Positions 4,860 to 61,700 of a DNA stretch of 64,000 bases are shown piece by piece; the first letter of the stretch is position 1; each line of letters opens with the position of its first letter. A model generated the notes under the pieces. It did not search any database and was not told the origin of the DNA. It saw only the letters and a program-made list of their open reading frames with translations. Position numbers and translations under genes: made by a program. The DNA lies in NCBI GenBank assembly GCA_032358165.1, contig JAALGY010000011.1:124001-188000 (forward strand), written 5' to 3'. Source of the stretch: Diplosphaera chodatii (lineage: Eukaryota; Chlorophyta; Trebouxiophyceae; Prasiolales; Stichococcaceae).

Positions 4860-7800
4860 ATGGCTGAGGCTGCGGTCGAGGCGGCGGGGCAGGCGCTGCT
4901 GGACGCGCCGCTGCAGGCGGCCAACAATGTGCCGCTGCTGCTGGCCAAACTTGCAGAGCCCGCAGCACACGACAAGGTGAGCGATACCATCTCAGGCGCT
5001 CATCATGCATGCGCATTGATTTAACGCTCAGAAGCTTTGTGTGCTCTGGGCATCTAGCGCGGCTGCCAGGATGTGCATGTGGCCTGCGTTTGAGGGTGGC
5101 CAGTTGCACGCATGGCACCTGCACCCACACCTGCTGCCGGCTCTCGGTGCAGGGCGTGCTGCTGACGGCGGTCGAGGCGCTGAAGCTCTTCTTCCTTGAC
5201 GCCGCGGCACGCGGCCAGCTGCCGGCCGCCAAGCGCCACAGGGTGACCAAACGAAAGGCGGTTTACTTCAATCAAAAGGGCGCTTTCATGCGGGGGTCCT
5301 TTCAGCCACACAGGTGCCAGACGTGCAGTCTGTGCACTCGCAGGGCGAGGCGGGGCCGGCAGGGGGCGTGAGCGACGCGGCGGCGAAGCACGCAGCGTGG
5401 CTGGCCCGGCAGCACGCCGCCTTCGAGCAGCGGCTGCTGGAGCTGCTGGCAGGGCAGAACGCGGTGCTGCAGGTCAGCTGCTGTCCGCACCAGGCAGACA
5501 TCACAGTTGTATGAGCTGTTGGCATCGCTGCAACCGTTGCGAGTACCTATCTGGAGACACAATTGTGTGAGCACAACAGGGCCATTCAGACCGGAGAACA
5601 GCCCGCCATCACTCGCTCTCGTCGGTGTCTGTAGCGTCTGTAGGATGGTGCCGCCTGCGCCGCAGGTGTCGGCGCTGTCGGCGGTCATGGCGCTGGTGAG
5701 GGCGGCCCGCGGCGCCGAAAGGGGCGTCTTTGACGTGGAGCTCTTCCGGCGGGCCCTTTTGGCGGCGCTGGGGCCGGCAGCCAGCGGCGAGCTGGTCGGC
5801 GTGCTTACTAGCAAGTACATGGCCTTCGCAGACGTCAGGTGGGCCTTTCATGGCTGCAGCTGCAGAGATTTGGGTCGCCTCGAGCCGCAGTCCTCAAAAG
5901 CCGCGTGCAACCCTTCAGTGAAAATGGTCTGCAGTCACACGAAAATTGCGACCTACAACAGTCTGCTGTACATGTAAGTGAATGCACTTTACTTGCTGTT
6001 CGCAGGTACCATGCGCTGACAGCGGTGCAGTCGCTGGCTGGTCAGCTGCAGCAGGGTGATGCCGACGGCACCAGCGCAGCCGGCAGCAGTGTCGGCAGCG
6101 GCAGCAGCGGAGCAGAGGCGGCGCGCCCGCTGTTCGAGGTCATGATGAACGCGCCGCCGACGCCGGCGGCGGACAGCTTCCCTGATGGCGTGACCTCCTG
6201 GACCGGCGCTGCAGAGGTGAGCTGTACCTGAGATAGTTCCCAGCTCTTTGCACCCTGCAAATGGTTCAGGCCACAGGACATCCGAATCTTTCCCAGGGCC
6301 AGGACTTCAGCAGGTGCCCCAGGGCTGCTGTCAGTGGTCAGCACAGCTGGGCGCAGTGGCATGTATACTGCGGACACTGAAGCTATGCACTGGGCAACCT
6401 CCTGAATCATATGAGGGTGCTAATCATGCTCCCTGCAGGCGGGCACGGCCCGGCCGGCGGCCAGCGCGCAGCGGCGGAAACGGAAGGCAGATGTGGGAAC
6501 CGGCGGTGGCGGCGAGTCGGTACGGTGGCTGTCATGGGAGCACCAGCGCCGCGCCTTCGCGTGAGTAACCCAGGACTCACGTGGTCCTTTGGCTGCCTGC
6601 AAATGCATGTGCTGTGCACAACTGTACTGGTTTTTTGCTGCACCTTCCCAGACAGCGGTCGCAAACCCCAGTTGCTTAGCAGTCGGACATTGACGCTCCG
6701 CCCAATCGCTCCAATGACTTGCTGATGTGCGGTCATGGCAACTGCGCAGCAACGCGTGGCTGGCGCTGCTGCGGTGCGAGCTGCCGGGCGACGCGTACCG
6801 CCGGGTGCTGGTCAAGATGCACGACGCGATCATCCCCGCGATGCCCAACCCGCTGCTGCTGGCGGACTTCCTGTCGGCCTCCGTCGACCAAGGTACGGCG
6901 TACCATCTGCTCGCATCACTCTGATCACCTTTGCACATTCTGTGCACTGTGTCATCACGGCATGTACCTACTGTTGGCTGCCCCCTGCGGCGCGGTGCCA
7001 GCCGTCAGGCAGCAGAGCCTGCGCTGCAAGGGCCTGCCATGCTATGCTGCACCGGCCTGAGGCGCACAGAAGCATCCCAGCGCTTGCGGCTGCTGTACAG
7101 CAGGCTGCAGGCTCGTAGACCCTGATTTGCTAAAGTGTCACTGCACGCGCAGGCGGCCTGACGGGCATGCTGGCGCTTAACGGCCTGTTCATCCTGGTCA
7201 CCCGCCACGGCCTGGAGTACCCCGCCTTCTACCGCCGCCTGTACGCCCTGCTCACCCTGGACGCCTTTCAGGTGGGATTGTGACCACTACTCCCTGGTGG
7301 CTGGCCAGCGAAAAGGATGTTGCATAAACCCTAGGGTCTTGGGTACCCCGCCTTCTGCCGCCGCCTGTGCGCCCTGCTCACCCTGGACGCCCTAAGGGTG
7401 GGAGTGGGCGTCGAAAGTCGGGTGCTGTGCAACTGTTGCAAGATGCAAGATGGCGGAGCACGGCAATGGTCAGCAGTGAGGAGCCTGCTGCTGAGCAGCA
7501 GGTGGCTGTTAGGCTGGAGAAGCACAAGCCTTGGGTCCTGGCCCTGCAGCAAGCCAGAGTAAGCTTGCGGCGACCTGCCAACAGTGAGATGAACCAGTGC
7601 CCGAGTATGATAGTATCTGCATGTCCAGGCGCGGCACCGGGCGCGCTTCCTGCAGCTGGCGGACGTGTTCCTGGCGTCGGGGGCGGTGCCCGCGTACACC
7701 GCCGCCGCCTTCGCCAAGCGCCTGGCGCGCCTCGCCCTGCGCGCACCGCCCGCGGGTGCGCGCTGCCGTCCCTAAACCCTCGACGGCGCAGGCCATCACA

Positions 7801-10159
7801 GCCAGACTGCTGTGCATCCAGCGTCAAGCTTTCGTATGTGACCACAATTTCTGTTGGTGTGCACACGTGTGCAAAGCACTGACAGACAGATAGACAGTTG
7901 CAGTTTGTTCGACAGCATAGGTGCCTCATGTGCGGCTGAGCGGCGCTTGGTAGGGGCATGTGCTCTGCTGTGTTCATTGCCACCTACATCTCGTGGCGCA
8001 AGCTGAGTAGGGGCATGCATGTGTTTGTACCCAGGCGCGGTCATCTGCCTGGCGTTCATCCACAACCTGCTGCGGCGGCACCCCGCGACCACGCAGCTGC
8101 TGCACCGGCCGCCGGCCCGGCAGCAGGAAGCAGGGGATGCAGCAGAAGCACCGCCACATGCCCCGGACGCAGAGGCAGCCATGGGTGATGCGCCGGCGGC
8201 GGCAGCGGCTGCTGCTGACACAGCGCCGGCTGCAGTGTCGCAAAGAAACCCTGCAGTGCGCATCGCGGGGCAGCCCACGCGGGGCGCCAGCACGGCAGCG
8301 GCGGCGGCAGCTGCTCAGCACAGCGAAGGCACACAATCAACGAGACCGCACGCCAATGGCTTGTCCAACGGCACAGCCCTGCACAGCAGCGACAGCAGCG
8401 ACGGCTGCAGCGATGGCGATGCAGAGGCAGCAGCTGCCGGGCAGGCAGACACAGGCCCCGCTGCCACACCGCCTGCAGCGGCCCAGCCGCAGGAGGCAGC
8501 CGCGGCAGCAGCTGCAGAGGTGGGCGCCCACCCTGGGGCGGACCCGTACGACGAGGCCGAATCCGACCCCGCAAAGTGCCGCGCGCTGGAGAGCAGCTTG
8601 TGGGAGGTCGCTGCGCTGCGCGCCCACTATGACCCCCAGGTGCTTAAACCCTAAACCCCTAAACCTGGCCCTGCCGACAGCCACGCGCCTTTGCTGGGCT
8701 CGGCACGGCAGGCATGCTGAGCGACTTGCCAGGTGCACTGGACTGTGGGACCTGGTTCGCCGTGGCTGGTCGGCCTGCGCTGTCGGCGGGGGCTGCTTCT
8801 GGCTGGCAGGCAGCCAGTGGGCGAGGTGGGAGTGCTCAGATGGCAACCTCCTCCGCCCCTGGTCTGAGCAGGTGGCGGCGTCCACGGCGGCGCCGGACAA
8901 GGACCTGGGCAAGAGCAATTGCATTCATGAGCGGCTACACACAAGGGTTGCATACTTAAACTCAACACTGAATCGCACCCCAGTCGGCGGCCTTAACGGC
9001 GGTGCTGGACAAGGACCTGGGCCGACCGGCGGCGCGCCCTGATCCCCATGCTTGCTTCACACCAAACCCTGTGAAATACAACCAATTCTGCTTGAACATT
9101 CAGGTTGCGGCGTTCACGGCGGCGCTTGACAAGGACCTGGGCGACCGGCGGCGCACCGCAGAAATCGACGTCGCGCCGCTGCTGGCCGACAGCTACGCAT
9201 CCCGCGTCCAGGTGGGCAGCCGTTAGAGTCCCCAGCGGCAAGGGTCTTGGGCTGGTGTGCCACCCAGGAGACAGCCATGTGCAGGCTTTGGGTGTGACAG
9301 TGTCCAGGTCCACGAAGAGCACGGTCATGGTGCTGGGAGGTTGTCGCTGGTTGCGATGTGCTGACTCCAGCCAGTGACACCATCGTTCTGTACACATCAG
9401 TGTCGATGCTGTGCTGCTGACCAATGCAGCAGTGCACAACCCGGAACCTGCACCTGGTACGGCTGCCTGTTTGCCAGACGCCTGGGCTGCTGCGGGGCAT
9501 GCCCTGTTGATGCATGAGCCAAGCCTGCAAGCCGGAGGTGCACTTCCGCGTGCATATGCAGCGCTCTGCACACTGCCGGGGCTGTCAAACAGCCCAGGCC
9601 GCTCCCTTGGCAGTGTGTATGGAGCTGCACGTGCTCAGAGGTATGCTTCCGCTTGCTTGCAGGCCGAGCCACACAGCAGCGTGCCATGCTGTTACAGGCA
9701 CATGCGCACCCCAGTGCTCAGGGCAGCCGTGTGTGCGTGCGGTTGCTTCCTGGGGATGCTAAAAGCTGATGTTGAAAGGCAGATTTCCCTAGACTCGCCG
9801 GCTGTGTGCGTGCTGTTGCTTCCTGGGGATGCTAAAAGCTGATGTTGAAAGGCAGATTTCCCTAGACTCGCCGGCTAACTGGGGCACACTGCACTCCCAG
9901 TTAGCGTGGTAATCTATTTACGTACACACCCAACGAAGGGTGGAAACAGTAAGACACTGGCAGAGTGGCGTGCCTAGCAAGCAGATGCATGGTCTCCTGG
10001 GCCCGACACGAAATGCAGATTTCCCCTGGAATGCAGGCGGAGCTGAAGCGGCGGCTGAAGGCGGCGCCCACAGCCTTCTACGCCGAGCCGCCGGCGTCGC
10101 TGTTCTCCGCCAACGCCGCTGCGGAGATGCTGCCTGGGTGGGACTTCACAGCTGCTTGA
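4860..10159 (+). CDS. NOC4: Nucleolar complex protein 4 (CBF/Mak21 family)
   Basis: At least 12 exons. Exon 1 is 4860-4976 (MAEAAVEAAGQALLDAPLQA). Later coding blocks lie near 5153-5242, 5316-5472, 5668-5837, 6006-6216, 6440-6560, 6750-6891, 7153-7270, 7628-7750, 8033-8639, 9104-9211 and 10037-10159. The CBF/Mak21 core is clear: NPLLLADFLSASVDQGGLTG, MLALNGLFILVTRHGLEYPA, FYRRLYALL, then RHRARFLQLADVFLASGAVP, AYTAAAFAKRLARLAL and ICLAFIHNLLRRHP. An Ala/Gln-rich insert (about 8130-8520) precedes DPYDEAESDPAKCRALESSL. The C-terminus is FYAEPPASLFSANAAAEMLP then GWDFTAA. Noc4 acts with Nop14 in nucleolar 40S subunit maturation. Two of its exons are surrounded by tandem partial copies (7212-7401 and 8872-9142). 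Confidence 0.93.
7212..7401 (+). repeat. Tandem duplicate of a NOC4 exon end plus donor
   Basis: The end of the exon coding YPAFYRRLYALLTLDAF and its donor (7212-7275) recurs at 7338-7401 with about 126 bp spacing. The second copy reads YPAFCRRLCALLTLDAL and has lost the exact exon end (CAG became AAGG). A telomere-like AAACCCTAGGGT lies at 7326-7337, right at the junction. The second copy sits in what must be the intron. Confidence 0.85.
8641..8668. repeat. Telomere-like CCCTAAA run just inside a NOC4 intron
   Basis: Immediately after the exon end DPQ and its GT donor come three successive TAAACCC units (TTAAACCCTAAACCCCTAAACC). This is an interstitial copy of the plant/algal-type telomere motif. 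Confidence 0.8.
8872..9142 (+). repeat. Three tandem copies of a NOC4 splice acceptor and exon start
   Basis: Copies at 8872-8910, 8983-9022 and 9104-9142 (spacings 111 and 121 bp) encode variants of VAAFTAALDKDLG. Only the third continues into a long conserved exon (RRRTAEIDVAPLLADSYASR). The first (VAASTAAPDKDLG) keeps an AG|GT-type acceptor. The second has lost its consensus acceptor. Confidence 0.88.
9731..9876. repeat. 73-bp direct tandem repeat in the last NOC4 intron
   Basis: 9731-9803 and 9804-9876 are almost identical: GTGTGCGTGC, the GGTTGCTTCCTGGGGATGCT region, then GACTCGCCGGCT. Only a base or two differ, so the duplication is recent. It is intronic and abuts the hairpin element that follows. 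Confidence 0.93.
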
Positions 10160-14000: not shown

Positions 14001-15657
14001 CTCTGGTCCCGACCTGTGACGCTGCCATCGCTGAAGGTGTAGTTGGTCGCTCGCACGCCGGACAGCAGCTCCAGGTTCTCGTTCTTGGTCACCTGCACAC
14101 GTACTGGCAGCCGTCATGCGCGCAACTCACAACAGTACACATCTTGCTGCATTTCTGCAAAACAAATGTTGACCAAGTGCAGGCTGGGGCTGTCTGCGGC
14201 GGCGCAGCGGCGCAGGGTGTGGGCACAGGTAACAGAAGGCATGTAGCGTGAAGCAGGAACAGGGGTACAGAACCCAGGCAGCTAGCGTGTCGCAGCCCCC
14301 GCCGCACGGCCGCCTCGTGCAGCGCGCGGGTGGCGGTCACGCCGGTGCAAGCCATGTCTTATGAGGCAGGAAGTGGGAAGCAGCATGCAGGAAGCGGTGC
14401 ATCGCACCTCCCGCCGCACGGTCGCCTCGTACAGCGCGCGGGTGGCGGTCACGCCGGTGCACTGGCCCGTGCCGTTGGGCCCCTCCACATGGCGGCGGTG
14501 GATGTAGCGGTTGAAGTTGAACTGCCGGCGAACAGAGCAGCAACGTCACCAGATTTACAGAACATCATGCAGCTGCATGCGAGTGCTGCTGCATGTGGCA
14601 CATGATGGCGGCAAGCCATCCGCGCTGCAACAACCCCATCCTACCCTGTGCCGAGGATGAGGACAACTCTCAGCAGCGACAAGCACTCACAGCGGTGCAC
14701 TCCTCGAGCCAGTTGACGCTGACGCCGCCGGCGTCGAGGAGCGTCTGCTCGAAGTCGGCGCCGAACATCTTGCTGAGCTGCAGCATGCCGCCCTTCAGCA
14801 GCAGGTGCGGCTGCGAGAACTGCGACACCCCCGGCCGCGAGCGCCCCGTCAGCTGCAGGATGCAGGGTGCAAGGTCGGCTGCAGGTAAGCCAGACAGCTG
14901 GGGAGACCGGCTGGAGGTGACTTGCATCTGGACTGCAAAAGGGTGCCCACAGCACAGCTACGAGCGCATCGAAGAATGAGCACTGGTGTCGCTGGTGATC
15001 CCGCGGATCAGCGGGTGGGGCGTAGCAGCGGGTCAAGCCGGAGCTCACGCCCCACATGCAAGCGCACAGCAAGGGACATAGCTAGGTTCAGCACGGCTGA
15101 GCACGCTAAACCAGCTGAAACAGATGTCCATTATGCACAGCTCCAGTACAGTCTGTGCAGACGCGCAGCGTTCGATCCTCGACCGTCACCGCGACGGAAG
15201 CCACGGCATGTGTCCCGTGTAGCTCCTTAGGGCACCGTGTCCTTACCTGGTCCTGCGACGCGTCCTCGGCGCTGGCGGGCGCCTTCGCCACGTCGTCCCG
15301 CTCCAGCAGGGTGACCTCGTCGAACAGGCCGCACAGCGTGTGCGCGGTGGCCAGGCCCGCCAGGCCCGCACCGATGACCACCGCCCGCAGCGGCGCATCT
15401 GTGCTGTGCACTGTGGTGGCCTCAGGTGCCGCGTGAGCGCGAAGAAGCGTAGCACCTCGCGTGCCTGCTGCATGGTGCGACTGCAGAAGGCTTGATGACA
15501 CTCTGTCAGGACGCCGGACGCCTGCTGAGGCGTGGCTGCAACTGAACCGCCTTTGATCCACTCCCAGGCTGCAGTGGGTTGCGGTCTGCCTGGCGGGCCC
15601 AGACGGCGGTACCGCGCAGCGATGAGGGCTTGGATGCAGCAGTCTCATGGTGTCCAT
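11029..15657 (-). CDS. FAD-dependent monooxygenase (2-polyprenyl-6-methoxyphenol hydroxylase-like), plastid-type leader
   Basis: About 12 exons. Exon 1 is 15247-15657: a Ser/Arg-rich leader of about 90 residues, then the Rossmann motif VVIGAGLAGLATAHTLCGLF with EVTLLERDD. Further blocks in order: RPGVSQFSQPHLLLKGGMLQ with FEQTLLDAGG (about 14693-14856), GVTATRALYEATVRRE (about 14411-14525), NENLELLSGVRATNYTFSDG (about 14017-14098), LATDLVVDATGRNSQTPAWL (about 13620-13737), SISANLGYGTCVFDAPNYYA, NKSKAYVVFATPPNKRG, GDHPPADHAGFLEFARSLP, MPDGLCVIGDAVAAFNPVYG (12409-12515, the FAD ribityl-binding GD motif), MTVGVLQAVQLRDM and the last exon 11029-11222. This is a group A flavoprotein hydroxylase fold; the substrate is unknown. 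The leader suggests chloroplast import. Two exon borders have tandem partial copies (14293-14461 and 11209-11397). Confidence 0.88.
11209..11397 (-). repeat. Degenerate tandem copy of the acceptor of the last monooxygenase exon
   Basis: 11209-11287 (CACCATGTGGAACACCTGCA onward) recurs at 11318-11397 (CACCGTGTGGGACACCCTGC onward), 109 bp apart, with about 25 percent divergence. On the gene strand both carry CCTGCAG followed by the start of the exon; only the downstream copy continues into coding sequence. Confidence 0.8.
14293..14461 (-). repeat. Tandem duplicate of a monooxygenase exon end
   Basis: 14405-14461 codes GVTATRALYEATVRRE, the end of the genuine exon. 14293-14347 codes GVTATRALHEAAVRRG, 112 bp further along the gene and inside the following intron. 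The second copy lies between a usable AG and a GT, so it could act as an extra exon. Confidence 0.88.
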
Positions 15658-16166
15658 CTTTCAAGGGACAAAAGTGGACGCAGGCCTGCTGCACCCGGTG
15701 CATTTGTGCAGGCTGTCGAGGCACAGCCACGTCTACCGCCACGTCATGCGCCTGGCTGCAAGTATCTAGCAGTTCTGCAGTTGATCGGCCCTGACCAGCT
15801 GCAAAGGCCCCAGCTCCCAGTCAAGCAATCCTCTAACAGGGCCACTCACCAGCGCACAGCCCTCCAGCCATGCAACACCAACGTAGGTGGCATGCATCAC
15901 ATCATGCAAGCAGCGAAAGTGCTGAAACCTGACGCCAATGCCAACTCATCAGTACCAACTGCAAAGCACATGCACTTTACATCCAGCTGAGCATGAGCAG
16001 AGCATTCCGAACCGGTAGCTGCTGCAACAAACCGCTGGCAGCCTCTCATCAGATTGCTGCTGGTGCACATCCACCATGGTCTCTGATCATCATCCACCTA
16101 CAGCAACTTGCATGGTGTGCTGCCTCTGGCCTACCTGGACATGCGCGCCAGTGCCCACTAAACTAC
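15658..16166. other. Intergenic region upstream of the monooxygenase gene
   Basis: Promoter and 5' UTR side of the monooxygenase gene and distal 3' flank of SPT4. No coding segment or repeat is recognised. Confidence 0.45.
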
Positions 16167-16455
16167 ACCCTGCCGTCAGCTCTGCCGGTGCAACCCGTGG
16201 TCCTCCGTCAGGATCCTCCACTATCTGCTGCTCGAAGGTTATGCTGGAACACATGCCGCATCCAAACGGGCCGCTAAACCCTGCCGTCAGCTCTGCCGGT
16301 GCACGCCGTGGTCCTGTCCTCCACCAGGTCCTGCAGATGCTGCTGCAGACGTCCGCGCGCTGGGACTCTACCGGGATGCGGGCCGCTAAACCCTGCCGTC
16401 AGCTCTGCCGGTGCACCCCGTGGTCCTCCATCAGGTCCTCCACGTACTGCGGCGG
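16167..16455 (-). repeat. Three tandem copies of the end of the SPT4 coding exon
   Basis: ACCCTGCCGTCAGCTCTGCC starts at 16167, 16278 and 16390 (spacings 111 and 112 bp). Each copy contains the reverse complement of the terminal codons and stop of SPT4 plus downstream bases. Only the copy at 16390 is joined to an intact exon; the other two are partly decayed and lie 3' of the gene. Copies 2 and 3 begin with the telomere-like CTAAACCCT. Confidence 0.88.
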
Positions 16456-20798: not shown

Positions 20799-23700
20799 TC
20801 AGGGGCCGCTGCTGAAGTCATCGTCCAATGCACCGCCTCCGCCGTCGGTCATGGCGCCGCCGGCGGCCTCGCCGGCCACGTCAGCGCCCAGGTCCCCGCC
20901 GCCGACGCCGCTGCCGTTGCCGCCGCCCGCTGCAGGGCCACTGCCGATGTCGCCGTCCTCTGCGTCGCTGGGCGCCGGCGACTGCGGGTTTTTGCGCGGC
21001 CGCCCGCGCGGGTTGCCGGTGCTGGTGGTGGGCTTGGGCTTCGGCGCCTGCGGCAGTACATGTACTCAGCATGCCGTGATATGACTGCATGCTGTGACGC
21101 GGATGCGCTGTATCAGGACTTGCGTGCACAGGAGGCTGCAGGAGCCTCCTGCGCCTGCTGCTGTGACGGCAGGCAGCCCTGGGGAAGTGCCCCTGACAGG
21201 AAACAGCGCACATGTGCTTGCCAGCGGCAGCGCGCATGCCGGCATCAGCATGCATCCAACACCAGGGGCCATGGCAGCGGCCCAGGCGCTGCTGCCTCCG
21301 CATGCTGCCGGGTCATGTGAGAGGTGATATATGCGGCTGCCGGGGTGTCGCACCTGCCGCTTGCGGGTTTTGACTGCGGTCGCCTCCGCCGCGGCCGAGC
21401 GCGCCTCCTCGGCTGCCTCAGCCGCGTCCACCTTGTCCTGCTGCATCTGCTCCTCCACCTGAAGTAGCATCAACACACTGGTCAGGTTGTTTTAAAGACA
21501 GAAGCACCTACCAGGGGGGAAACAATCTATTTCTTCGTAACAGAAACCATTGAAATCTGAACTTCCCACCAAGAAACTACTGGCAGCGCTGCTGGTGCAT
21601 GCGGTCTGCCATGCAAGCTCCGGGGTCTACATGCAGAGCCGGTGCGCAGGTATTGCACAGCTCACGATGCACACTGGAACTTTACCAGTTGCGCCGTCAA
21701 GGGCCCCCCCGCGCCGCCGACTGGCGGGTGGCCTCGACCTGGCAGCTGACAGCAGGCAGCCTCGGGTGCCGGGAGCGTCAAGAACAGCACCTGGCGCCGC
21801 CGGGCGCGAGCCGCCTCCTGCGCTTCCGTCAGGACCTCCCAGGGCTCCCGGTCCTCTGCTTCCGCCGCTTCCATCTCCGCCTCGAACGCCGCCCGCTGCT
21901 GCTCCAGGGTGCCGTCCTGCCGCCCCTTCTCCACGGCCTCCTCCGCCGTCGCCATGTTCCTCTGCAAGGATGAGGTGCACCGCTCGTATTGTGGACCGCT
22001 TCGACCGTGCCCCATGTCGGCTGCTTGCCTCGCGGCTGCCCTACCTGGTTGCGCCTATCCAGCAGGCTGCAGCCGCCACTGCCACGACATCAAAGTTCTG
22101 CACATCCCATGATACTGGCGGCCCTGATTGCCAGGCTGCTCTGCAGCATGCTGTTGGTGCCCAACCTCCCATGCACACAGGAAGGGCCGCACAGCGCCCG
22201 CCAACCTGAAACCAGACCCCTATGCGCGGTGCCACCCTATGTCCTTCTGATGAGTAGCATTGTACCCAAACATCCGCCCATGCACAGTCCACCAGCCACG
22301 AAGCAGACGCATGACAGCGTAGAACGGGGGAACAACAAGTCACGTCATACGTCGCCCACAGCTCCTCCATCTGCTCGGCGGCGTGCTGGCGCCCCTCGGC
22401 GCGGACGCGCTTGAGTTTATAGAGGAGAAATAAGCTTACAAAACCCTAAACCCCACTCACGTCGTACGTCGCCCACAGCTCCTCCATCTTCTCGGCTGCA
22501 TGCGCCCGCCCCTCGGCACGAACGCGCTTGATCTCGTCCAGGTCGTTGTCCTCCACGAAGCGCGCGAACAGCCCCATGCTGGCGGTCAGCTTGTCGTTGA
22601 CGTCGCCGTACACGCCCACCTTGCCCACGAAGTCCTTCAGGTTCACTGCAGGGCAGGGGCAGCCTTGTCATCAGCACCGCTGGTCTCTGATGCGCTTCTG
22701 GTGTAGATGGACACCACAGCAGGTTGAGTGGAGCATAGCAGGGCCTATCAGCTGACCCGCGTGGGGTGCGTGGAGCTGCAGTGCAGCTCGGCATCTGGCG
22801 CACAGTCTGGCACGTCAGCATGACAGCGACGGCGGCGCACCCGGCAGGCAGTAGGCGAAGCTGAGGGTGACGCGGGTGCGCGGCCGCCCGCCCATGTCCT
22901 GCCGCCGCATCACCGCAAACCCAACCTGTACATAACCAAGCAGGGTTTAACTCATAATAAACATGTGAATAGATGCGTGGCCGCCAGCCCATGTCCTGCC
23001 GCCGCATCACCGCAAAGCCCACCTGTACATAACCAAGCAGGGTTTAACTCATAATAAACATGTGAATATATGCGGGGCCGGCCGCCCATGTCCTGCCGCC
23101 GCATCACCGCAAAGCCCACCTGTACATAACCAAGCAGGGTTTAACTCATAATAAACATGTGAATATATGCGGGGCCGGCCGCCCATGTCCTGCCGCCGCA
23201 TCACCGCAAAGCCCACCTGTACATAACCAAGCAGGGTTTAACTCATAATAAACATGTGAATATATGCGGGGCCGGCCGCCCATGTCCTGCCGCCGCATCA
23301 CCGCAAAGCCCACCTGTACATAACCAAGCAGGGTTTAACTCATAATAAACATGTGAATATATGCGGGGCCGGCCGCCCATGTCCTGCCGCCGCATCACCG
23401 CAAAGCCCACCTGCACACATGCACCCACAAAGACATTGGAGCTGATGCTGAACGATGGATCTCAGGTGCCAGAGCTGCGTCCAACGCTGCGTGTGAGCGG
23501 CTGCAGCCCTGCCTACCACCTGTTTCATACCAGCACACTACCTGCCATGCTGCAGCCCTGCAGATGAGCCTTGCAGCGCCCCTGCCGCCGCTGCCGCCGT
23601 CGTCCCCGCCGGCATGACAGTCAGACCCTGAGCAGGGCAGCGGCAAGCGGCAGGGACAGGACACCCACCATGGGCAGCCCCTCGTGCGCCTCCTCGATGA

Positions 23701-26069
23701 TGACCGCCTCGTCCCGCTGCAGCGCCGACGCCGTGCGTTCCAGGATGGTGCGGATCTCCAGCGTCGGCATCTGGCCTGTCACAGTGGAACATTTTGGGTG
23801 GAGAGACAGCATATCAATGCATCCGGCCATGGGGCCAGCCAGTGGGATGATACCAGCATCCTGGCGCACCCGCTGCCTATATCAGGACTGCTGAAGGGTG
23901 TGATGACCCACATAATAACAGGAAAGCAACCGTCAGTCTTCTGTCGACTCTGGGTTCCCTGCGACAGGGTGGGCGGAGCATGCAGGGGGGCAGTCCCGCA
24001 CCCCAGCGGTACAGGATGCGCAGCTGGCAGAAGCGCTCGCTCTGCTCCGGGTCGTCGCTGGGGATGACGCCCATCTGCGGGCGCAATGCAGAAGAACTGA
24101 CACTGAAGACTTCATTTCATTGTATGGGATGCTTGGTTGGTGCCACTGCAAACCTCACCGCAGGGCGCAACCTGATGCCACGAGTGCTAGTCGATCATGT
24201 GTGCACGGCTCAGTGATGATATAAGCCAATTTTCCAGGTTTGTAAGCCCTGAAGCCCTTATTCCCAAACCGGCGGGCGCACCTCCTGGATGAGCGGGAAC
24301 CATTGGCAGTAGTTGATGCGGTCCGCCCACACCTCGTAGCACTTCTCCAAAGGCGCCTCCACCATCACGCTGACCTACAGGCAGACAGCCATAAACCCTC
24401 ATGCGATGCAGCATCAGATCTACTCCTGATAGAGCTACTCTGCCATGTAGCCTTGGGAAGCGCATAACCACCTGGCACGACTTTTGCATGTGCTGCACTG
24501 AGCACCACCCCCACAGCCCCACCTCGTGCTTGAGCTGCTCCTCGGAGATCTCCACGTAGTCCCAGGGCGTGAAGCCCACCTGGCCCCGCATCTCCTCCAA
24601 CTCATTCTCGGCCGGGTCGCCAAACACGTCCTCCATGCGCGCCGGCTGCGCGCCCAGGTCCTGCACAGTAGGAAGCTCCATTGTTGCCTTTGAATCTGCT
24701 GAGTTCCTTTCGGCAGAATCGCCGAACACGTCCTCCATGCACGCTGGCTGCGCGCCCAGGTCCTGCATAATGGGAAGCTCCATTGTTGCCTTTCAATCTG
24801 CTGAGTTCCTTTCGGCAGGGTCGCCAAACACATCCTCCATGCGCGCCGGCTGCGCGCCCAGGTCCTGCGCAGTAGGAAGCGCCATTGTTGCCTTTTGATC
24901 TGCTGAGTTCCTTTCGGCCGGGTCGCCAAACACGTCCTCCATGCGCGCCGGCTGGGCGCCTGGGTCCTGTGCAGCATGCATGATTGGTGGTAAAAGGTGC
25001 TGCTGTCCTTGCCATGAGGCATTCTGCAAACGGGTCTTCAGGATTCGCCAGAGATGAGTTTATGCGTGCCGCTCCCCTACCCAGGTCCTGCACAGTAGGA
25101 GGTGCAGGTGTGACGCTGGGAATGCACATCTGCCTGCGGACGTGTCAGAGGTGCTCGTGGAGCTGGAGGCTGGCGCTCTGCCTGGGTCCTGCATGCACAG
25201 GACTGCCCAGCAGCATGTGCAAATGTGCGCAGCTGGCGCGCTGCCCAGCTGCTCAAGGGGTTTTTGGCCCCTGGCAATGCCGAAACGCTGGTGAGGCGCA
25301 CTCAACCCCACCTCCATCGCCTGCTGCCGCTCCCCGTCCTGCCGCTGGCGCAGCTCCGTGGGCATGAGGCCGTCTGGGTTGCCTAAACCCTGAAAACCCT
25401 GAGCGCAGAACCCCACCTCCATCGCCTGCTGCCGCTCCTCGGCCTGCAGCGCCGCCAGCTCCTCGGGCGTGAGGCCGTATGGGTCGTCTTCCTCGTCCTC
25501 CTCGTCTTCCTCTGCTTCCACGTCGCCGTCCGCCGCCGCTGCAGCGCCGAAGCCGCCGCCGCCTGATACAGCCGCGGTGTCACTGCCGGCCCAGTCCATT
25601 TCCTGCGAGAAGATGGCAGTCCCAATCAAAACCCTGCCAGTGCTGACTCGGCTTGGCTGCAACATTGTGCGAGCGCATCAGCGGCAGCGGTGGCATGCAT
25701 ACCAAAGTTGGTCAGTGTCGGTGTCATGTTGCCGGCGCAGAGCATTGCACGCATACCAACCCCGCTGCTGAAAAGTGGCTCACCTGGTCCAGCAGGTCAT
25801 CTGGGCCGGCCCCTGCTGCTGGCCCCGCTGCGGCTCCGGCGCCAAAGCCGTCGCCGGCCTGCGACGCTGCGCCGCCGCTGTACCTGTCGTCAGCGCCGCC
25901 ATACATGTCTTCATTGTCGCCGTACATGTCTCCACCCTTTGCCCAATCCTCGCCCCCCGCTGCACCGCCGTCCCTGGCGCTGAAGTCGTCATCGTCTGCC
26001 GCCGCGCGGCACAGCCGCTGCGCTCTGCCAGTTGCTCTGCTGCTGCCATTTGCTGGAGCTGCTGGCGGT
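20799..26069 (-). CDS. START-like (polyketide cyclase/COQ10-type) protein with acidic N-terminus and AT-hook tail
   Basis: Ten or more exons; the 5' end is uncertain. Order on the gene strand: Gly/Ala/Asp-rich region (MYGDNEDMYGGADDRYSGG, about 25784-25985), acidic EEDEEDEEDDPYGLTPEELA (about 25413-25594), a repeat zone, VGFTPWDYVEISEEQLKHEV (about 24518-24580), the lipid-binding fold SVMVEAPLEKCYEVWADRIN then YCQWFPLIQE (about 24281-24365), PSDDPEQSERFCQLRILYRW (about 24002-24074), LEIRTILERTASALQRDEAV (about 23693-23775), GFAVMRRQDMGGRPRTRVTL (about 22860-22920), VNLKDFVGKVGVYGDVNDKL (about 22457-22648), a Glu/Ala-rich coiled coil (21352-21961), and a C-terminal basic stretch with the AT-hook core GNPRGRPRKNP (about 20985-21020). 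Plant homologues of the START-like part are annotated cyclase/dehydrase; ligand unknown. Four separate tandem-duplication arrays lie in this gene. Confidence 0.82.
22341..22532 (-). repeat. Tandem duplicate of an exon end in the START-like gene
   Basis: 22458-22532 is the genuine exon end (RVRAEGRAHAAEKMEELWAT). 22341-22413 is a diverged copy 117 bp away (RVRAEGRQHAAEQMEELWAT) inside the following intron. The sequence joining them carries AAACCCTAAACCCC (about 22441-22454). Both copies end in a usable GT donor context. Confidence 0.9.
22886..23412 (-). repeat. Six-copy 97-bp tandem array carrying a splice acceptor and exon start
   Basis: CCCATGTCCTGCCGCCGCAT starts at 22891, 22988, 23085, 23182, 23279 and 23376: exactly 97 bp apart each time. 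On the gene strand each internal unit has TTATGTACAG followed by the exon start VGFAVMRRQDMGGRPR, and the linker contains GTTAAACCCTGC. The inner copies are nearly identical, so the array is young. Only the copy at 22891 runs on into the conserved exon. 97 is not a multiple of three, so reading through breaks the frame. Confidence 0.96.
24616..24975 (-). repeat. Four-copy 102-bp tandem array at an exon start
   Basis: The block starting GTCGCC(A/G)AACAC recurs at 24616, 24718, 24820 and 24922, exactly 102 bp apart, each coding a variant of DLGAQPARMEDVFGDPAE preceded by an acceptor-like GCAG (TAATG in one copy). A partial fifth copy of the acceptor is at 25079-25110. Although 102 bp is 34 codons, an in-frame TGA at 24793-24795 separates copies 1-2 from copies 3-4. 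Confidence 0.95.
25306..25482 (-). repeat. Tandem duplicate of an acidic exon end
   Basis: 25411-25482 (YGLTPEELAALQAEERQQAM) is the genuine exon end. 25306-25377 (DGLMPTELRQRQDGERQQAM) is a copy 105 bp away in the intron. The junction holds CCTAAACCCTGAAAACCCTG at 25382-25401. Confidence 0.92.
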
Positions 26070-32103: not shown

Positions 32104-35100
32104 TCAGATATGCGATGCATGTGCTGGCTGGCAGGTCAACGAGGAGGGTTTTGTGCAGTCGCTGTGCACCTGCAGGATGCCGGGCGTCGCATCACGCCCA
32201 GCTGCCGTCTCCAGGATGACGACCTGCACCGCAGCTCTGAAGCCCTCTGACGACCATGGCTGCATATAATTTGACCCTGACACGCGACGAATGGACATGT
32301 GCACTGTGGAGCAGCAAGCGCAGAACACCACGAAACATGGTCCTACTGAGAGCGCATTGTGAGGTGTCAGGCACTCGAGTCAGGTGGACTGTTGAAAGCA
32401 TCAACAGAGTCGTCCTAGACCCTACCTGGTCGTACTCCAGGTCAAGGCGCAGGAAGGCCATCGTGACAAGGCAAGCTGGGCCAAGCTTACGAGACTAAAC
32501 CCTACCTGGTCGTAGTCCAGGTCCAGGCGTAGGAAGGGCGTCGTCGCGCCGTCTATCGCCGCCACCACCTCCCGCAGGTTGCCCACCGGCTTGTCGTTGA
32601 TGCGCAGGATCTGCGGCGACAGGGTGCACCGAATCAAATGTGTGATGCGACAAGAGGATTGAAGGCGCTCACGCTGCCCGCTACTAGTTCTGAACGGCAG
32701 GACAGGAGCAGGTCAATGACCCTGCCGGCGGAGCCGCTGCCCCCCCAAAGCACACGGCGGGCACAGATACGCCCAGGCGGCGCTCCATATTACTCGTCCT
32801 TAATCACTAGTCCGCAATATTCAGCATCTGCGCGCCTGCGTGTTGACGATGTCCTCGAAGCCGATGTTGATCTCTGACGCCAGCACCTGACCCACCACCA
32901 CCACCTGCTGCGCCGCCGACTCCGCCCTGCAGCATGATGCACACCAGGGTCTTCATGCAACACCACACAGAGGCCCACACATTGGCCAAGGGTGCCGCCA
33001 GCGCACAGCCTGGCTGGCGTCAGTGGGCTGGGCAGGGCGGTTTGTTCGATACAGGGTGGAGACGGTCAGAGGGGCGCACATGGCGTGCAGCAGCTTGTCC
33101 AGGATCTTCACGGGCGAGTCGAACTCAAACTCCTGCAGAAACAGTCGAAAGCACAGATCAGCGCTGCGGAGGCCACATCACAGTTGAGCAGTCACTCCAG
33201 TTTGCCTGCGCTGTTTCAGTGGTCAAGCGAACCACATGACCATGGGCTAGCCAGCCAGAGCAAGCAACGTGCCAAGGTTTGCACACAGCTGCAAACGCAA
33301 TTCTCTGCATTAGTGACATCCTATAAGATTGTTCACCTTGCCGTACTCGGACTTGAGGTAGGGCACTGTGACGGCCGTGAACACAAAGCCGCTGAAGATG
33401 AAGTAGCTGGGCGCCGCCCCCCTGCAGCACATGCACACGGTGAGTGACGAGCTGACGACAGCACTAGCGCTGGTGTGGTGCAACTGCCTGGCAAGCATCA
33501 AAGCGGCTGATGTAGCTTGCTACTGCCTGTTCTCCACACCGGGCAAGCACTGGCGCAAAACCTTGCAAGCCATTCGAAGCTAGCTTCAGGCCGCTTCTTG
33601 CCAGTGCTTGCCTTGCGAAGACACTAGGGAGTAGCAAACTGCACACAGGGATGCGCTATGCAAGACCCTGATGCCCATACAGAATTGACGCACTTGAGGT
33701 GGGAGGGTATGAGGCGGTGCGGCCCCTTCAGCTGCAGCACCACCTTCGACATCTTGCCGTTCCGCAGGATGCGCAGGTGCGCCTGTACAGTATCAGACAG
33801 AGGTTTCCTGAGGCAGGTTGAAACCCAGAAGGACGCGGTCAAGAAGTGCGATAGCATCAGGACTGATACGCATATGCTCAGGCAGCATGAACGACAGGCA
33901 GCCAGCTCCAACTGCTGCTTGAGGCAGGTGCACCTAACACGCTTCGCAGCAGAACATGGTTGGGAAGGCATAGGCTGCCAGCACACCGTGTCGTTGTTCT
34001 GCTTCTCGGAGATGAGGTAGCTGAAGTTGATGCGCTCGCCCGACCGGAACGCGACTGTCCCGTCATACCTGCAGATGGTTCAGTATGAGGGGTATGCAAA
34101 GCAACATAGTGTCTGTGCGCTGAACTTGGCGACTGGCATGCCAGGTACAGCTGAGTGGAGCACGGCGGGCTTTGGCATGCTGGTCTGGAACGTATACATG
34201 ACTACTGCTCGATTATGCTGCGCATGCACAGCATGCTTGGCTGATGTAATACCAGCCGTCATCATGCTGAGCTTGCTGCAGCATGGGTCTGAAACCACAA
34301 CCACAAAACGCACCCGATCTCAGTGTCGTCAAATTGCATGAGGATGTCCCCCTTCCGCAGCACCTTGCTGGTAGGGCATGTCGGTTCGACCCGTCTGCAT
34401 ACATCCAGGTGGCACATCATGAATGCATATGGAGACTGCGCTGTGACAGGGACCCTTGAGTGCACTGATGTTGCTGCAGGTAAGCGTTGGCCAGAAGTGC
34501 ACATCAATCGATGCTGATGTGCATGCATCGCAGTTTGCAGCCTGCAGCATGGTTGCCTTCACACAGTGTCTTGATAGCCTGGCCTGGGCCAGAACCGTCA
34601 GAGGCTCATGACAGTATCTTCAGGGAGCACAATCTGACGTACCTGACCAGGACGCCCTTCTGGCCGGGCTTCATGCCCAGCGCCTGCTGCAGGGTGGGCG
34701 ACTCCAGCTTCTGCCACTCTATGCCCAGCGCGGGGAAGCCGGTGTACCGTCCGTTGCGCGCAAAGTCGTCAATGAAGTGGTGAATCACCGGCGGCGGGAT
34801 GACGTACCCTGCAGTGCAGCATCAGATTTAGGGCTTGGAGCACACTGATGGTGGACGGCTGCTTGAAGCGTCAGCTCACACCCTTGCAGCTGCAGCAGCA
34901 CAGCAACGTTGCTGGGTGAGCTGTGTGGTGAGGCTCTGACTGCTGCCATTTATCCTTGCAAGCGGCTTGCCTGCTGCATCCGGGCAATGCTCAATTCTTG
35001 AAACATGCAACACGATAACATGGTGCGTGCTCACCAATGTTCTCGGTGTCGCCGTCCTTCAGCGACTGGAAGGCGATGCCGACGCACTCCCCCTTGTGGT

Positions 35101-49100: not shown

Positions 49101-52100
49101 CCTTCAGCACATCGCCGAGCGGCCGCCACCCACTGATGCCTGATGGCAGCACGACAGGCGGGTTCCTCACCTGAATGAGGTCTTCGGACGGCAGGCCGAC
49201 GCACTCGCGCTTGGATGCCTCCAGGGCGAGCGACAGCTGGCGCGCCTCCTCCAGCTCCAGCTCGTGCTGCCACTCCACGACGGACACCCCCGCCGGCGGC
49301 GGGCCCCTAAGGTTTTGGCAGTCAGAGTTACGTCAGTGTGATTACATGAGCCTCCTCCAGCTCCAGCTCGTGCCGCCACTCTGCCACCGACACCCCCGTC
49401 GGCGGCGGGCCTCGGCGGTGGCAAGGTATGACATCAGGTACACACAACCTGATAACATACAGCAGTCTGCTGCTCAGGTTTTGCCCCTGTTTTGCCGAGA
49501 AACAAATGGCTGGCTGTGGTCCAGTGCCAGCACCATGACATCTAGGGAACTGTCCAAGTGCGCCCTGGTGCAGGGCATGTAGCTGGTCTTGCAAGATGAT
49601 ACTCAGTACAGAAGGTTGCATTGGGTACATTGGAAGCTAGGCTGCCTGCAAATCGTTGCAAGCCGGCAATACCCCGACACAGATGAACCGCTGCAAGGCG
49701 GGACGGCTCACATGGGGTTCAGCACAAAGCCGCGGGAGCGGGCGGGGCGGTTGGCGGGCGGCGCGTGCGCCAGCTCCTCCGTGATGGACATCACCCCCGG
49801 CTGCTGCTGCTGCGACGGCACGACGTGGCGGCGCCCCGGCGGCGGCTTGGGCCGGGCTGCTGCCACCTCCTGCTTCCACGACAGGCACGAACGTCACAGC
49901 TGGTTCCAGAGGGGGCATGCTTCACATGCGCTCAGCACACGCCGTGGCCATGACTGCACACCAGTACCTCATCAAGCCAAGGCTAGAAGCTGCCAAGAGG
50001 CCTCTGTGGAGTAACCTTGCAGATGGCGACAGCTTACCTTCTTCTCAATGTTGGGCTGCGCCCTGCGTGCAGCCTCCTGCTTTGTGACCTCGTAGTCGGC
50101 CTCAGCCGCCGCCAGCGCCGCCTGTATCGCCTTGTCCTTTGCCTTCTGCACCTGCGATGGTTGGACATCAGAAAGCGTCGGACATCAGAAAGCACTTGCA
50201 CACCAAGATGTCGGCTGCTTGGCCGCTGCCTGCGCCCATGTTGTCTGCTACAGATGTGCAGTGGGCACTTAGCAGTCCTTCAGTAGTGACATATATGGCT
50301 TGGGTACCTGCACGCGTTCAAGCTCAGCTGCGACGAGACCTTCTGCGCTGGGTGCTGGCTGCTCAGCAGACGCCTTGCGCCCCGCCTTGCCTTCGCCCTG
50401 CACAGCAGTATGCCACCAGAGCATCTTCACCTCCCAAGAGTGCAGGGTTGCAGCATGAGCATGGCGCGCAGGTTGGCCGCTGCGCAGGCTCAGTCGCTTC
50501 CCTCAAAAGGGCTTGACAGCACCGGGCGTTGCCCCTCAGCCAAGCCATGCATGAAAAGCATCATTGCCTGCAGTCTGCTGTGTCGTGAAAGACTTGTTAT
50601 GAATATTCCCTTCCCTCATTGATTGAGCAGCACACAACAGGTGTGTTGCAATGTGAGCACAGAGCAGCAAGGAGTCACACTTGTGACGGATGCACAGGAC
50701 CGACGAGACATTGGTGAACATGGGTGTGAGAGCATGCAGTGGTGTTCGCACCTTCTTACGGCGGCCGGAGTTCTGCTGCTGTGCTGGCGCTGCGGCGGCA
50801 GCCCCATTGGCGGTTGGAGCACCGGCTGCATGCCCCGTGGTGGGGTACATCGACTCCACGCTGTGCTCCGACCAGATCGGGTCCCCCTTCTCTGGGATGC
50901 CTGGCGCAGCAGCAGGTGTCGCCCAGTCAGCGGAGGTCAGAGTAGCATCAGAGACAAGATGGTCGGAGTCGGCCCAAGAGAACCATGGTGGGCCGCCACT
51001 GGGGTCCAGAAGACAGTAGGTAAGCAGCTCAGCAACCATTGTCACATTGCAGCACCCCTTGCGACTAGGTCCGGCTTCGACAATGAGCATGTGAAGTCTG
51101 ATGGTCAGGCCCCCTGACCGCTTCAAACTTGCATGAGAATTGCACTCACTGATGCGCGAGCGGAAGGAGTACTTGGTCCCAAGCTTCAGGTCTGCCACCG
51201 TGACGATGTGTTCGGAGGTGGCTGCGATGGCCACCCGCCAGCTGGGCTCGCCGGCGGCCCGGCACTCCAGCTGCCACGTCTGGTCCTCGAACACCTGCGG
51301 CGCCACAGCTCATGTGGGCCATGACATGCAAGGAGGTGCTATGCCTTGCTGTGACACAACAGGGAAGGATCAACAGAATGGCACCGACCAGCAGCAAGGT
51401 AGTATGGCTGGCCACACCATGCATGCCCGCTGTGCACATATCTGCTGCATCAACAACATACCTTCTTGCCGTCCCGTGACAGTGCGATCGTGATGGAGGT
51501 GTCGGACTTCTCGCGCATGACGGGCCGGTTGGGCTTGCCCAGGCTGGCCGCCACGTCAGCGCGGGCCTTGGCGATGCACGCGGCCTCCTCCGCCTCTGCC
51601 TGCTTCGGATCCCGCTTCTGTAGGTTGCAGAACATGGCACTTTCAGCAGAAACACGAGCCGATCTTCCTGCTGCTTTGCGACCTCTGCGTGATGCTGTAC
51701 CGAAATGCCATATGCGCCAGCAATGAGCAGCGACCTGCTGCATGTGAGGCGACACTGCACTGCTGCAAGCTATGCAAATGGCGCTCTCCCGACTCAGGAA
51801 CAGTGTTCGGTTGGACACAACACCTGGAGCCGCTGCTGCTCGCGGGCCTCCTTTGCCGCCTCGCGGGCAGCGACCACGTCATTTGCTCGGCGCGCCGCCT
51901 TTTCCTCCTTGGCGGACTGCTGCTTGCGGCGGGTCTCAGATCGCCGCCTGCGTACACTCAAGCGTTGTCAGGGTGCTACAGTGATGTGGCAAGGTTAACA
52001 ATGATGTGGCATGACACACATGCGCTCTGTAGATGCCCACTGGGGCATGCGCCAGACTGCAGCCACTCCCCCTGTATCTCAACACTGCTGCATGCAGCCG

Positions 52101-58796: not shown

Positions 58797-61700
58797 TTAC
58801 TCGTTCGTGTAGCCTGCACCACAGCCACAGCGCCTCAGCGCCCCTGCCTCCACCATGTCAGCAGCTGCCAGTGCCATCTGCATCGACACTCAGCACGACT
58901 GCAGTCGTTGCTGCAAGCCTGGGCATTTCACCCTGACAGCAGGGGGAGGGATAACCAGAGCAGTTGACAGTCGAGGGCGGCAGCTGCTTACCCCAGTACT
59001 GCAGCATCGGCACCACCACCGCGATGAACAGCAGCGTGAGCACGATGGGGCCGGTGACGCCCTTCTTGTCGTCCGTCTCGTTCTTGGTCTTGTACGTGCG
59101 CACGCGCGCGGTGTCCTTCTTCGCGGGCGGCGCCGGCACCGCCTCCCCCAGCAGCTTGGCCTGCGTGCGGATTCAAACCTCTGAATCCAGGGGTGTGTGC
59201 GCCGGTCGCACGACTGACTCGATTCGGTCCTCCTTCGCCAGCAGCGCCGGCGCCGCCCCGCCCAGCAGCTTGGCCTGCTGCTGCGGCTTCCAGCTTCCAA
59301 GGTTTAAAGTCTGGAGCTGCTGCGTGCTCGCGTGTGTGTCCTTGTCTGCCATCAGCAGCGGCACCGCCTCAGCTGACCAGGTTGGCGCTGTGTGGGTCTC
59401 GTGCCGACTGGTTGAACGTTGGTTTCCAGCTTCCGACTTTCAGCCTCTGGACATGCTGGAACATGGTAGCATCCCGCACAGCCGCCACCATCTCGCTAGT
59501 GAGCTCACGTGGCACACCACAGTGCTCTAGTCCAGGGCTGTCTCAGACCCTGCGAGCGCCAGAGGTCGCCAGAGCAAGCCCCTGATGCAGGCGCTGCTGC
59601 AGGATCACGGCTGGAGGCAGCGCTCGAGTATTCGAGTGCAGCCCTGGGAACTACCCTGAAGCCTACCTCAATACGGCGCAGCGACGAGGTGACCGCCTCG
59701 TTGAACTTGGCGTCGTCAGCCAGCGTGGGGATGTTGTCGCTGACGATGCTGTCCGTCAGCTCGTCGCCGATCGTCTGCGCAGCCACAATGCACATGTATA
59801 TCACACTGACGTCTGTGAAACACTTGTGAGCGTGCATGTTTAGTACACTTGAGCAGACTGATTGATGATCGGCCCTGGGTGTACACCTGTGTTGCCTCAC
59901 AGACTTGACAACTGCCTACACATGGCATCCTTGGCACTGGAGCGCATGCTGCCCTAAGTGGCCCAGCACATGTCCTCTTGTGCTATCATCGCAGTCTGCC
60001 GGACAATGCCTAGTGTTCAGCCTCACAACGGTGTCGTCAGGCATCCACCCGCATGATACTGAATGTGACCGCCTGACGATGCGCCGTTGTGCGGGAGTGT
60101 TGGTCAGCACTGGCTGTCAGGTAGGCGTTCCAGTCAACTCATTGGGCAGTTACCCGCATGAACTTGGGGCCGCCGGACAGCGCGCCATCCTTGGCGGTGG
60201 ACACGACCAGCAGCAGACCCTTGTTGTCGCCCTCCTCCGGGGTGGGGTACCACCTGCAGCACAGGGTGCACCTTTCCCCATCATCCACCGGGGGCTTAGA
60301 TGCACAGCAGGGGCCATGGCAGCTGCTGCAATGACGGCTGACAGCTGTGGCGGGGCTGCACGCGCGGGAGCAGCCACCCTGTGTCTGCCCTCCTCTGGAG
60401 GCTACCAATTGACATGCACGCCAAGCATCCCGCTGCTCGTAGAGCCCTCTTTGATGGTGATGTATGCAAGCACTAGCCCATTCAGATCAAGCGCAGTTTC
60501 GCCACGGCTGTCAAGCCTGACGGGTGAGAGCAAGGGGTGGAAGCAGGCGCACTTCTCGATGACCTTGTCCGCAAAGCCGAAGGCGTCGTTCTCGAACTCC
60601 AGCTTCCGCACCGTCACGACCTCCAGCCTGTAGCCGTGCTCAATCTGCGGCAAATGCAGTGTCACCAGTCCCCAGGGCTGCGGCAGTGTTGAGCTGGCAC
60701 CTGGCAGTGCTGGGCCGCTGGTGCCGGTTTTCTTTGTTCGTTGCACATGCGCATATCCTGCAGGTGGACGTATCCTGCTGCCCTGCAGCTGTTCTGGCGG
60801 TCGGCAGCGGCGGCGCTTCCAGCTCACGTGTCCGACACACCGCACCGCAATGCTGCTGTGGTGCGTCAAACGTACGTTGCTGTGGCACGCTGGCACACGT
60901 TGCTGGCACACGTTGCTGTGGCACACCCAGGTGAAGACAGAGCCCACCTCAAAGCGCGTGAGCTCGTCGTTGACGGCCTTTTTGGTGGTGCGGTTGAGCA
61001 CGCCGGCGTCGTCGATGATGTGCTGCGACGTCGGCTTAGGCGCCTGCAGTGCAGCGCTTGCCGTCGTCTGTTCAGCTGCAGGTTTTCACTCCTCTAAGCT
61101 GGCGTTGAGCCCGTGCTGCAGCCTGATCCCATGCACCCCTCTCCGGCGGACAGCCTGTCCACCGCTCGGCTGCAAGCGGTTCAGCGGCGCTTGAAGCCCC
61201 GCTCAACACTTGCCGCGACCGCTATGAGGTTCAGCTAGTACGCGCCTAGCGCAGTCCGCCCTAAGCGGCTGCACACTCACCGACAGGATGTCCAGCTCGT
61301 TGGCGAGCGCGCTGCCTGAAATGCTGCCTGCTGCCAGCACTGCCGCCGTGGCTGCCTGCACACCGCGAGCAACCAGGTTGGTACTGTGCAAGTGAAGCTC
61401 AGCGCCAGCTTCGTGCCTCAACTCTGTTTGAATGCAGTCGACTACGCATAACGGGCAGCATGCATCTTGGGTTGCAGCAACTTCCACTGCATGCATTGTG
61501 CACTCACTGCTGCTGCTTTGCCGCGGACGGACTCCAGCAGCGTCTGCTCCTGCACAGGTGGCAGGGCACCGTGAGCACACGGTACAAACCCACACGTCTG
61601 CTGCTGCAGATCCACCCGTGACATGCGCCCTGCTGGCATGCTGCCGCGGCAACTGCTGGTGCAGTCTGTGCAATGTAGCAGGCTGACATGCAGGTGTAAA

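Follow-up and report, generated by a model that had tools for sequence, protein, structure and literature searches.

Short telomeric tracts and tandemly copied exon edges at intron ends in Diplosphaera chodatii

In mammals (primates, rodents and horse), short telomeric repeats are described as insertions made during double-strand-break repair (PMC7215372), and CST-guided Pol alpha fill-in is reported to make small tandem duplications in mammalian cells (PMC8355091); each of these components, interstitial telomeric repeats and small tandem duplications, is already known. Here we describe a 64-kb stretch of the green alga Diplosphaera chodatii (hereafter the window; C9:124001-188000 within an 85.57-Mb assembly of 55 contigs) in which exon edges have been copied in tandem together with their splice sites, often beside the telomere-type motif TTTAGGG, and we compare it with telomeric tracts elsewhere in the genome. 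In what follows, C plus a number denotes a contig of this assembly and L plus a number a sampled locus outside the window.

Several described systems permit a comparison. Like the mammalian short interstitial telomeric sequences, the algal tracts are short and lie at single sites; a simple target duplication is found in a minority of loci in both (3/66 in horse, 2/40 here), and exons are described as free of tracts in human, as they are here (0/40) (PMC7215372). However, the human intronic share is given as compatible with random insertion (PMC7215372), whereas 25/37 intronic tracts in D. chodatii are no more than 20 bp away from a splice site. The plant telo boxes (AAACCCTA) of Arabidopsis and rice are likewise a telomere-type motif within genes, for which an origin by telomerase addition at free 3' ends has been proposed; according to the same account they are enriched in 5' untranslated regions and not in introns as a class, though the first two introns hold more of them (PMC3022908). 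In potato RdRp a tandem copy crosses an intron-exon border, as here (PMC4974935), but the algal copies lengthen existing introns and often carry a telomeric tract at the junction. The duplications assigned to CST-Pol alpha-primase are small and tandem, as here, and arise by fill-in of complementary overhangs at staggered breaks (PMC8355091). That system concerns induced breaks in mammalian cells, with no telomeric tract in the assay as described, whereas ours is algal sequence alone; by analogy, the fact that CST is a telomere complex would make a link between tract and duplication attractive. Among the titles and opening abstract lines listed in our literature search, which left subscription papers and preprints largely outside, there was no report of telomeric tracts clustered at splice sites or of their exon-edge duplications, and this is weak evidence of novelty.

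Copied exon edges in the window

In the window, an ungapped diagonal scan for direct duplications at spacings of 40-400 bp yielded 13 loci; five block shuffles of the same sequence yielded none. Eleven of the 13 are sets that a first-pass annotation of this DNA had described as exon edges copied in tandem, and these duplications are real. They are given below with their spacings in bp.

7209..7406, + strand: NOC4, exon end and donor duplicated at a spacing of 126; AAACCCTAG adjoins copy 2, and copy 1 is the coding one
8869..9142, + strand: NOC4, acceptor and exon start in three copies (8869, 8981, 9101; spacings 112 and 120), the last of them coding; AAACCCT at 9064
14290..14461, - strand: FAD-dependent oxidoreductase gene, exon end and donor duplicated at 112; no telomere motif
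16156..16427, - strand: SPT4 region, three copies (16163, 16267, 16379; spacings 111 and 112), with agggtttag in two and agggtgtag in one; the Spt4 domain is in the neighbouring model
22340..22531, - strand: START-like gene, exon end and donor duplicated at 117, with sense gtgagtGGGGTTTAGGGTTTT between the copies
22877..23417, - strand: START-like gene, acceptor and exon start in 5.6 head-to-tail units of 97, with sense AAACCCT about 16 bp ahead of each acceptor
24608..24969, - strand: START-like gene, acceptor and exon start in 3.5 units of 102; no telomere motif
25304..25489, - strand: START-like gene, exon end and donor duplicated at 105, the copies flanking AGGGTTTTCAGGGTTTAGG
32415..32544, - strand: trypsin/PDZ protease gene, exon end and donor duplicated at 80; after CAG the donor reads gtagggtttag in one copy, and the other donor is caggtagggtctag
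49244..49411, - strand: DnaJ-domain gene model, exon start duplicated at 106; AAAACCTTAG adjoins the copy at the predicted exon
59111..59370, - strand: TPM-domain (TLP18.3-like) gene, three partial copies (59113, 59225, 59336; spacings 114 and 111); no exact telomere motif

Gene models were predicted ab initio after training on 231 kb of this genome, the window included (584 introns; predicted medians of 168 b for introns and 102 b for exons). Pfam backs the names given in the first-pass annotation for SPT4, the protease (trypsin and PDZ), the J-domain gene and the TPM (TLP18.3-like) gene, and finds FAD-dependent oxidoreductase domains in the FAD gene; the names DEG9 (the protease at 32415) and TLP18.3 come from that annotation, Pfam supporting only the trypsin/PDZ and TPM domains. 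The label START-like is also taken from it and is unconfirmed: Pfam gave merely a DUF match under its cut-off, and a search with the model protein returned no match at E<=0.001 among 7987 candidates scored.

The spacings of all 11 sets fall within 80-126 bp and those of 10/11 within 97-126 bp, which bears out the recurring spacing stressed in the earlier annotation; by a count over all loci, 11/13 lie at 60-140 bp, locus 9730 included. The aligned copies of the 11 sets are 84-98% identical, and the varied ages that had been read from them hold. Between the aligned copies of neighbouring pairs lie 0-78 nt, part of which may be decayed copy and not filler, and the units are unrelated to one another; such direct repeats of unrelated sequences, with filler or without, are what fill-in duplication at staggered breaks is expected to leave. 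In eight donor-type sets the copies, read by hand, end 4-11 nt into the intron (9, 6, 4, 8, 11, 7, about 10 and 5).

Two of the 13 loci are unrelated to these sets. The locus at 9730 is a 73-bp duplication within a predicted intron, and that at 9954 consists of two copies of a dispersed repeat of about 150 bp (window copies 9862-10008 and 10190-10348; 39 rows in a genome search, with identity up to 98%). A further set that had been claimed at a spacing of 109 amounts to two short stretches of weak and decayed similarity (11204-11224 and 11250-11281) and is not among the 13.

An excess of duplications at exon borders, as the earlier annotation had supposed, is marginal. Ten of the 13 loci overlap an exon-intron border against 6.75 expected by random placement (p 0.054), or 11/13 against 7.39 with a 5-bp margin (p 0.032), after 11 exons predicted inside extra copies had been removed by hand and exons shorter than 20 b left out. 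Because exons and introns are short here, border overlap is weak evidence of a mechanism acting at borders; by this measure alone, the duplications come close to being no commoner at exon borders than elsewhere, and a simple preference for exon borders was rejected.

By the same scan, 16 other stretches near 300 kb (152,972 b) gave one locus, stretches near 140 kb on seven contigs (17,500 b) gave three, of which one, a coding repeat, has a spacing of 60-140 bp, and 14,000 b flanking the window gave two. The density of duplications is thus far lower in the sampled stretches than in the window, which makes the window a hot spot; its exceptional density may reflect its location within 200 kb of a contig end.

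Telomere motif and tracts at intron ends

TTTAGGG is the organism's own telomere repeat: an array of it terminates contig C7, so that tracts of it qualify as short interstitial telomeric sequences. Among the matches listed, C14 has an array within about 300 b of its end and C12 a looser cluster within 1 kb, and six other contig ends (1 kb each) showed no TTTAGGG arrays. A reversed-pattern control for the telomere repeat gave no matches, and TTTAGGG copies are dispersed elsewhere.

Within the window, AAACCCT/AGGGTTT occurs 32 times, the highest count among its 140 anagrams (median 5), against 11 occurrences and an anagram median of 12 in the 300-kb samples. It lies in 7/13 duplication footprints where 1.3 would be expected; none of 20000 random placements reached 7, and placing the footprints over borders gave p 2e-4. 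For footprint overlap it ranks first of the 140 anagrams; the next three are rotations of it and cover the same positions. In window introns, with each copy in an array counted separately, 14/28 motif copies stand no further than 25 bp from an end, where 4.5 would be expected. The stretch AAAACCTTAG at 49244 is telomere-like with an inexact motif and was left out of these counts, as was a similar stretch in L019. The telomere motif is a stronger regularity than border overlap, and one that the first-pass annotation missed. Telomere-type sequence stands at predicted intron ends of the window at the following further places:

8640..8665, + strand: NOC4 (exon 8035-8639), AAACCCTAAACCCCTAAACC tract beginning 6 nt into the predicted donor, without duplication
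29760..29897, + strand: two occurrences of AAACCCTAC at a distance of 108 bp, the second of which stops 17 bp ahead of a predicted acceptor
30037..30080, + strand: AAACCCTAAAGCATAAACCCT beginning 18 nt into a predicted donor, without duplication

Outside the window, the matches listed, which extend as far as C14, include 41 distinct (TTTAGGG)2 places on C1-C13 that are non-terminal. We sampled 40 of these, leaving out C13:3253786, and took none of four further places on C14. The 40 loci lay outside the training set of the gene models, on whose predictions the following intron and exon counts depend. Thirty-seven of the tracts are in predicted introns, three are intergenic and none is in an exon. 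Within the introns, 25/37 are within 20 bp of a splice site, whereas 8.6 would be expected from uniform placement in the same introns (0/20000 simulations); with six related or repeat-borne loci removed the figures are 25/34 and 8.4. Widening the margin to 25 bp gives 28/37, namely 23 at donors and five at acceptors. At two loci out of the 40, L055 (about 101 bp) and L060 (about 64 bp), copies of the exon edge flank the tract. Tracts also lie within 200 kb of a contig end in 17/41 cases against 9.2 expected (p 0.005), a nearness that is suggestive, most contig ends not having been shown to be telomeres.

The orientation of the tracts is uneven. Among two-unit tracts within 25 bp of an intron end, donors have 15 in G-sense and 8 in C-sense, and acceptors 4 in C-sense and 1 in G-sense. 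Whole-genome patterns after AGGTGNG gave 29 rows in G-sense against 13 in C-sense, and before GCAGG the C-sense rows number 78, at about 72 distinct places, and the G-sense rows 40, at about 36. The mirror control, which covers the donor-side patterns only, gave 13 rows (five groups) and 10 rows for AGGTGNG; 7/10 rows of the second mirror pattern read GCAG followed by GTG, which is acceptor-like, L029 alone having been checked by gene model. The two-unit tracts and the patterns are biased in the way that an extension of exon-side broken ends would predict. Single-unit 7-mers were counted in 402 predicted introns. In C-sense their density per kb is 1.06 over the first 40 nt, 0.14 in the middle of the intron and 1.80 over the last 40 nt; in G-sense it is flat at 0.12-0.19. 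At the acceptor end (29 C-sense, 3 G-sense) they agree with the two-unit bias. The single-unit counts repeat the enrichment at intron ends, but not the G-sense bias at donors.

Some tracts resemble one another. L067 and L068 (C13:3144052 and 3149943) are closely similar paralogs 5.9 kb apart, with the tract beginning at the CAG/gt donor in each; in L046 and L052 (C8:592 kb and C10:415 kb) the tracts flank a short core that is similar in both, CCCTAAA and TTTAGGG standing face to face. At C22:1358824-1391638 the same telomere-variant string stands at four places in 33 kb and is probably a local repeat family.

Paralogs, relatives and the order of events

The START-like gene has a close paralog at C31:1471000-1477600, where each of the four places duplicated in the window has its splice sites too (three introns). 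The 117, 97 and 102 duplications are absent from the paralog, the 97 and 102 places being single-copy; the counterpart of the 105 duplication has a spacing of 119 and a near-identical telomere tract, and the tract common to both paralogs is CAGGGTTCAGGGTTTAGG / CAGGGTTTTCAGGGTTTAGG. By this comparison the splice sites are shown to predate three of the four duplications. In this one gene the introns are not confined to where the duplications are, and intron gain is rejected for it. At the 117 site (the WATYD intron) a telomere-like stretch stands at the donor in both paralogs, decayed in C31, and the duplication is present in the window only, which indicates that the tract came first there.

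At the 105/119 place, the identities between copies over 63 exon bases (P, paralog; W, window) are 56 for P1-P2, 51 for W1-W2 and 56 for P1-W1, and 55 for P2-W1, 46 for P1-W2 and 46 for P2-W2. At three sites, all of them inside four bases, the copies sort according to paralog; at no site do the second copies go together. The comparison speaks for an independent duplication in each paralog next to a single old tract.

For NOC4 the best protein matches have 54 and 53% identity, and the relatives among the best include Myrmecia, Micractinium, Chlamydomonas and Tetradesmus. The first duplicated segment is single in 11/13 relatives, those in which the search string was found, and homologs there read YPAFYxRLYxLL..F and pass directly into the next exon; the second is single in all five relatives' C-termini compared. 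In these relatives the sequences that flank the extra copy are joined directly. In the NOC4 and START-like sets the coding copy adjoins the remaining exon and the other copy sits in the intron. The earlier claim that one copy alone continues into coding sequence is thus upheld in the two genes that the check covers, by relatives for NOC4 and by the paralog for the START-like gene. Its companion proposal, that the duplications reflect intron gain or the multiplication of splice sites, survives in its second half: splice sites have been multiplied at the level of DNA, but intron gain finds no support where the START-like paralog and the NOC4 relatives allow a test. The two FAD paralogs, compared as 2-kb pieces, show no duplication; the duplicated exon did not align, so they give no date for it.

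A two-step account and its alternatives

We propose an account in two steps, whose chances of being right we judge to be evenly poised: a telomeric tract at the intron edge, followed by a fill-in tandem duplication that the intron tolerates. In the first step, short TTTAGGG-type tracts would be added just inside the ends of introns, the simplest route being telomerase or telomeric filler in the course of double-strand-break repair. Tract-bearing intron edges would then break again, and end-joining with fill-in of the staggered break would copy the neighbouring exon edge and splice site at a spacing near 100 bp. The intron would absorb the extra copy, and the splice site beside the real exon could still give a normal protein; copies at intron edges would survive, and similar events inside exons would be purged. 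We infer that telomerase supplied the repeats, that breaks occur at the tracts, that the copies arose by fill-in and that the proper splice site is the one used in the mRNA. A broader form, in which telomerase acts at recurrent breaks at exon-intron borders, so that tracts mark intron edges genome-wide, seed the copying of splice sites and in some cases become new intron ends, seems to us quite unlikely.

The proposal brings together, at a single location in the gene, the intron edge, two scars of repair that are already known: interstitial telomeric repeats and small tandem duplications. If it held genome-wide, this alga would offer a natural archive of splice-site breaks, showing their places and the manner of their repair, the copying of splice sites would become datable, and there would be a way to test whether intronic telomeric repeats alter splicing, a matter called interesting in the mammalian report (PMC7215372). 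If repair products form new intron ends, telomerase would be a contributor to the evolution of gene structure.

Several observations weigh against the two-step account. Border overlap is barely enriched. No clear duplication lies within 130 bp of 38/40 tracts, and 6/13 window loci (two of them the unrelated ones) have no exact motif, so that neither tract nor duplication needs the other. In the first 40 nt of introns, single-unit 7-mers are 17 in C-sense against 2 in G-sense (outside the window 6 against 2); this donor bias is opposite to that of the two-unit tracts and weakens the argument from exon-side extension. The five tract-bearing intron bodies searched genome-wide (L029-L032 and L034) gave self-matches only, so captured filler DNA was rejected as having no source there. 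The paralog-grouping sites at the 105/119 place, lying inside four bases, could equal one gene conversion, and P2-W1 is also close at 55/63. Faster decay of the intron than of the exon parts of the copies may sharpen the apparent break point. The account gives no reason why the tracts should sit at intron ends and not anywhere in introns, nucleosome edges, R-loops and selection on splicing being guesses, and the gene models are our own ab initio predictions.

Several of these points would equally suit ordinary small tandem duplications arising, by slippage or by fill-in of staggered breaks, anywhere in a local hot spot, of which those at exon edges survive in introns, the motif being incidental or a selected, splicing-friendly sequence. 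Border overlap near random placement and the loci without exact motif would be expected under it, the C-sense 7-mers are enriched at intron ends (1.80 and 1.06 against 0.14 per kb) as a splicing signal would be, and the tract at 25304 is well kept between the paralogs while the surrounding intron is not. However, runs in which two to three TTTAGGG units follow one another in perfect phase, and which occur in both orientations, look like telomeric repeat and unlike a splice consensus, the motif lies in far more footprints than the 1.3 expected, and the tract is bracketed by copies in L055 and L060. We consider this explanation possible, though unlikely.

A link between telomerase and the birth of introns, the tract being what the intron-creating insertion left behind and hence lying at one end of the intron, would account for the clustering of two-unit tracts at intron ends in both orientations and for the bias expected of exon-side extension. 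Yet none of the five intron bodies searched has another match in the genome, the single-unit motifs at donors are biased the opposite way, and no intronless ortholog speaks for it; we think it very unlikely. The 23 tract-bearing intron bodies compared among themselves also gave no match at E 0.01, and an introner family was rejected, no one shared repeated sequence being found among them. Intron gain by tandem duplication has, in our view, a very slender prospect: the units carry a donor or an acceptor and resemble the potato RdRp case as described (PMC4974935), but the START-like paralog, which shares the splice sites and lacks three duplications out of four, contradicts it for that gene, and the NOC4 relatives join directly across the extra copy, the copies extending existing introns. 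To an assembly artefact we give next to no credence: the near-identical 97-bp array, known from the assembly alone, could be miscounted, but the copies of the 11 sets are not exact, and the same type of structure occurs on other contigs (L055, L060, L019 and the C31 paralog).

The remaining observations concern neighbouring or unrelated sequence. C9:63657-64269 and C31:1517365-1518246 hold relatives of the window FAD gene at 75-82% identity; the C31 relative lies about 40 kb from the START-like paralog, perhaps as part of an old segmental duplication. The first exons of the NOC4 model (window 3384-3890) resemble a separate gene for an Sm-like (LSm6-type) protein, presumably fused to NOC4 by the model. 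At L073:2-248 (C10:140 kb) an in-frame array of 108-bp repeats lies in a predicted exon and bears no relation to introns.

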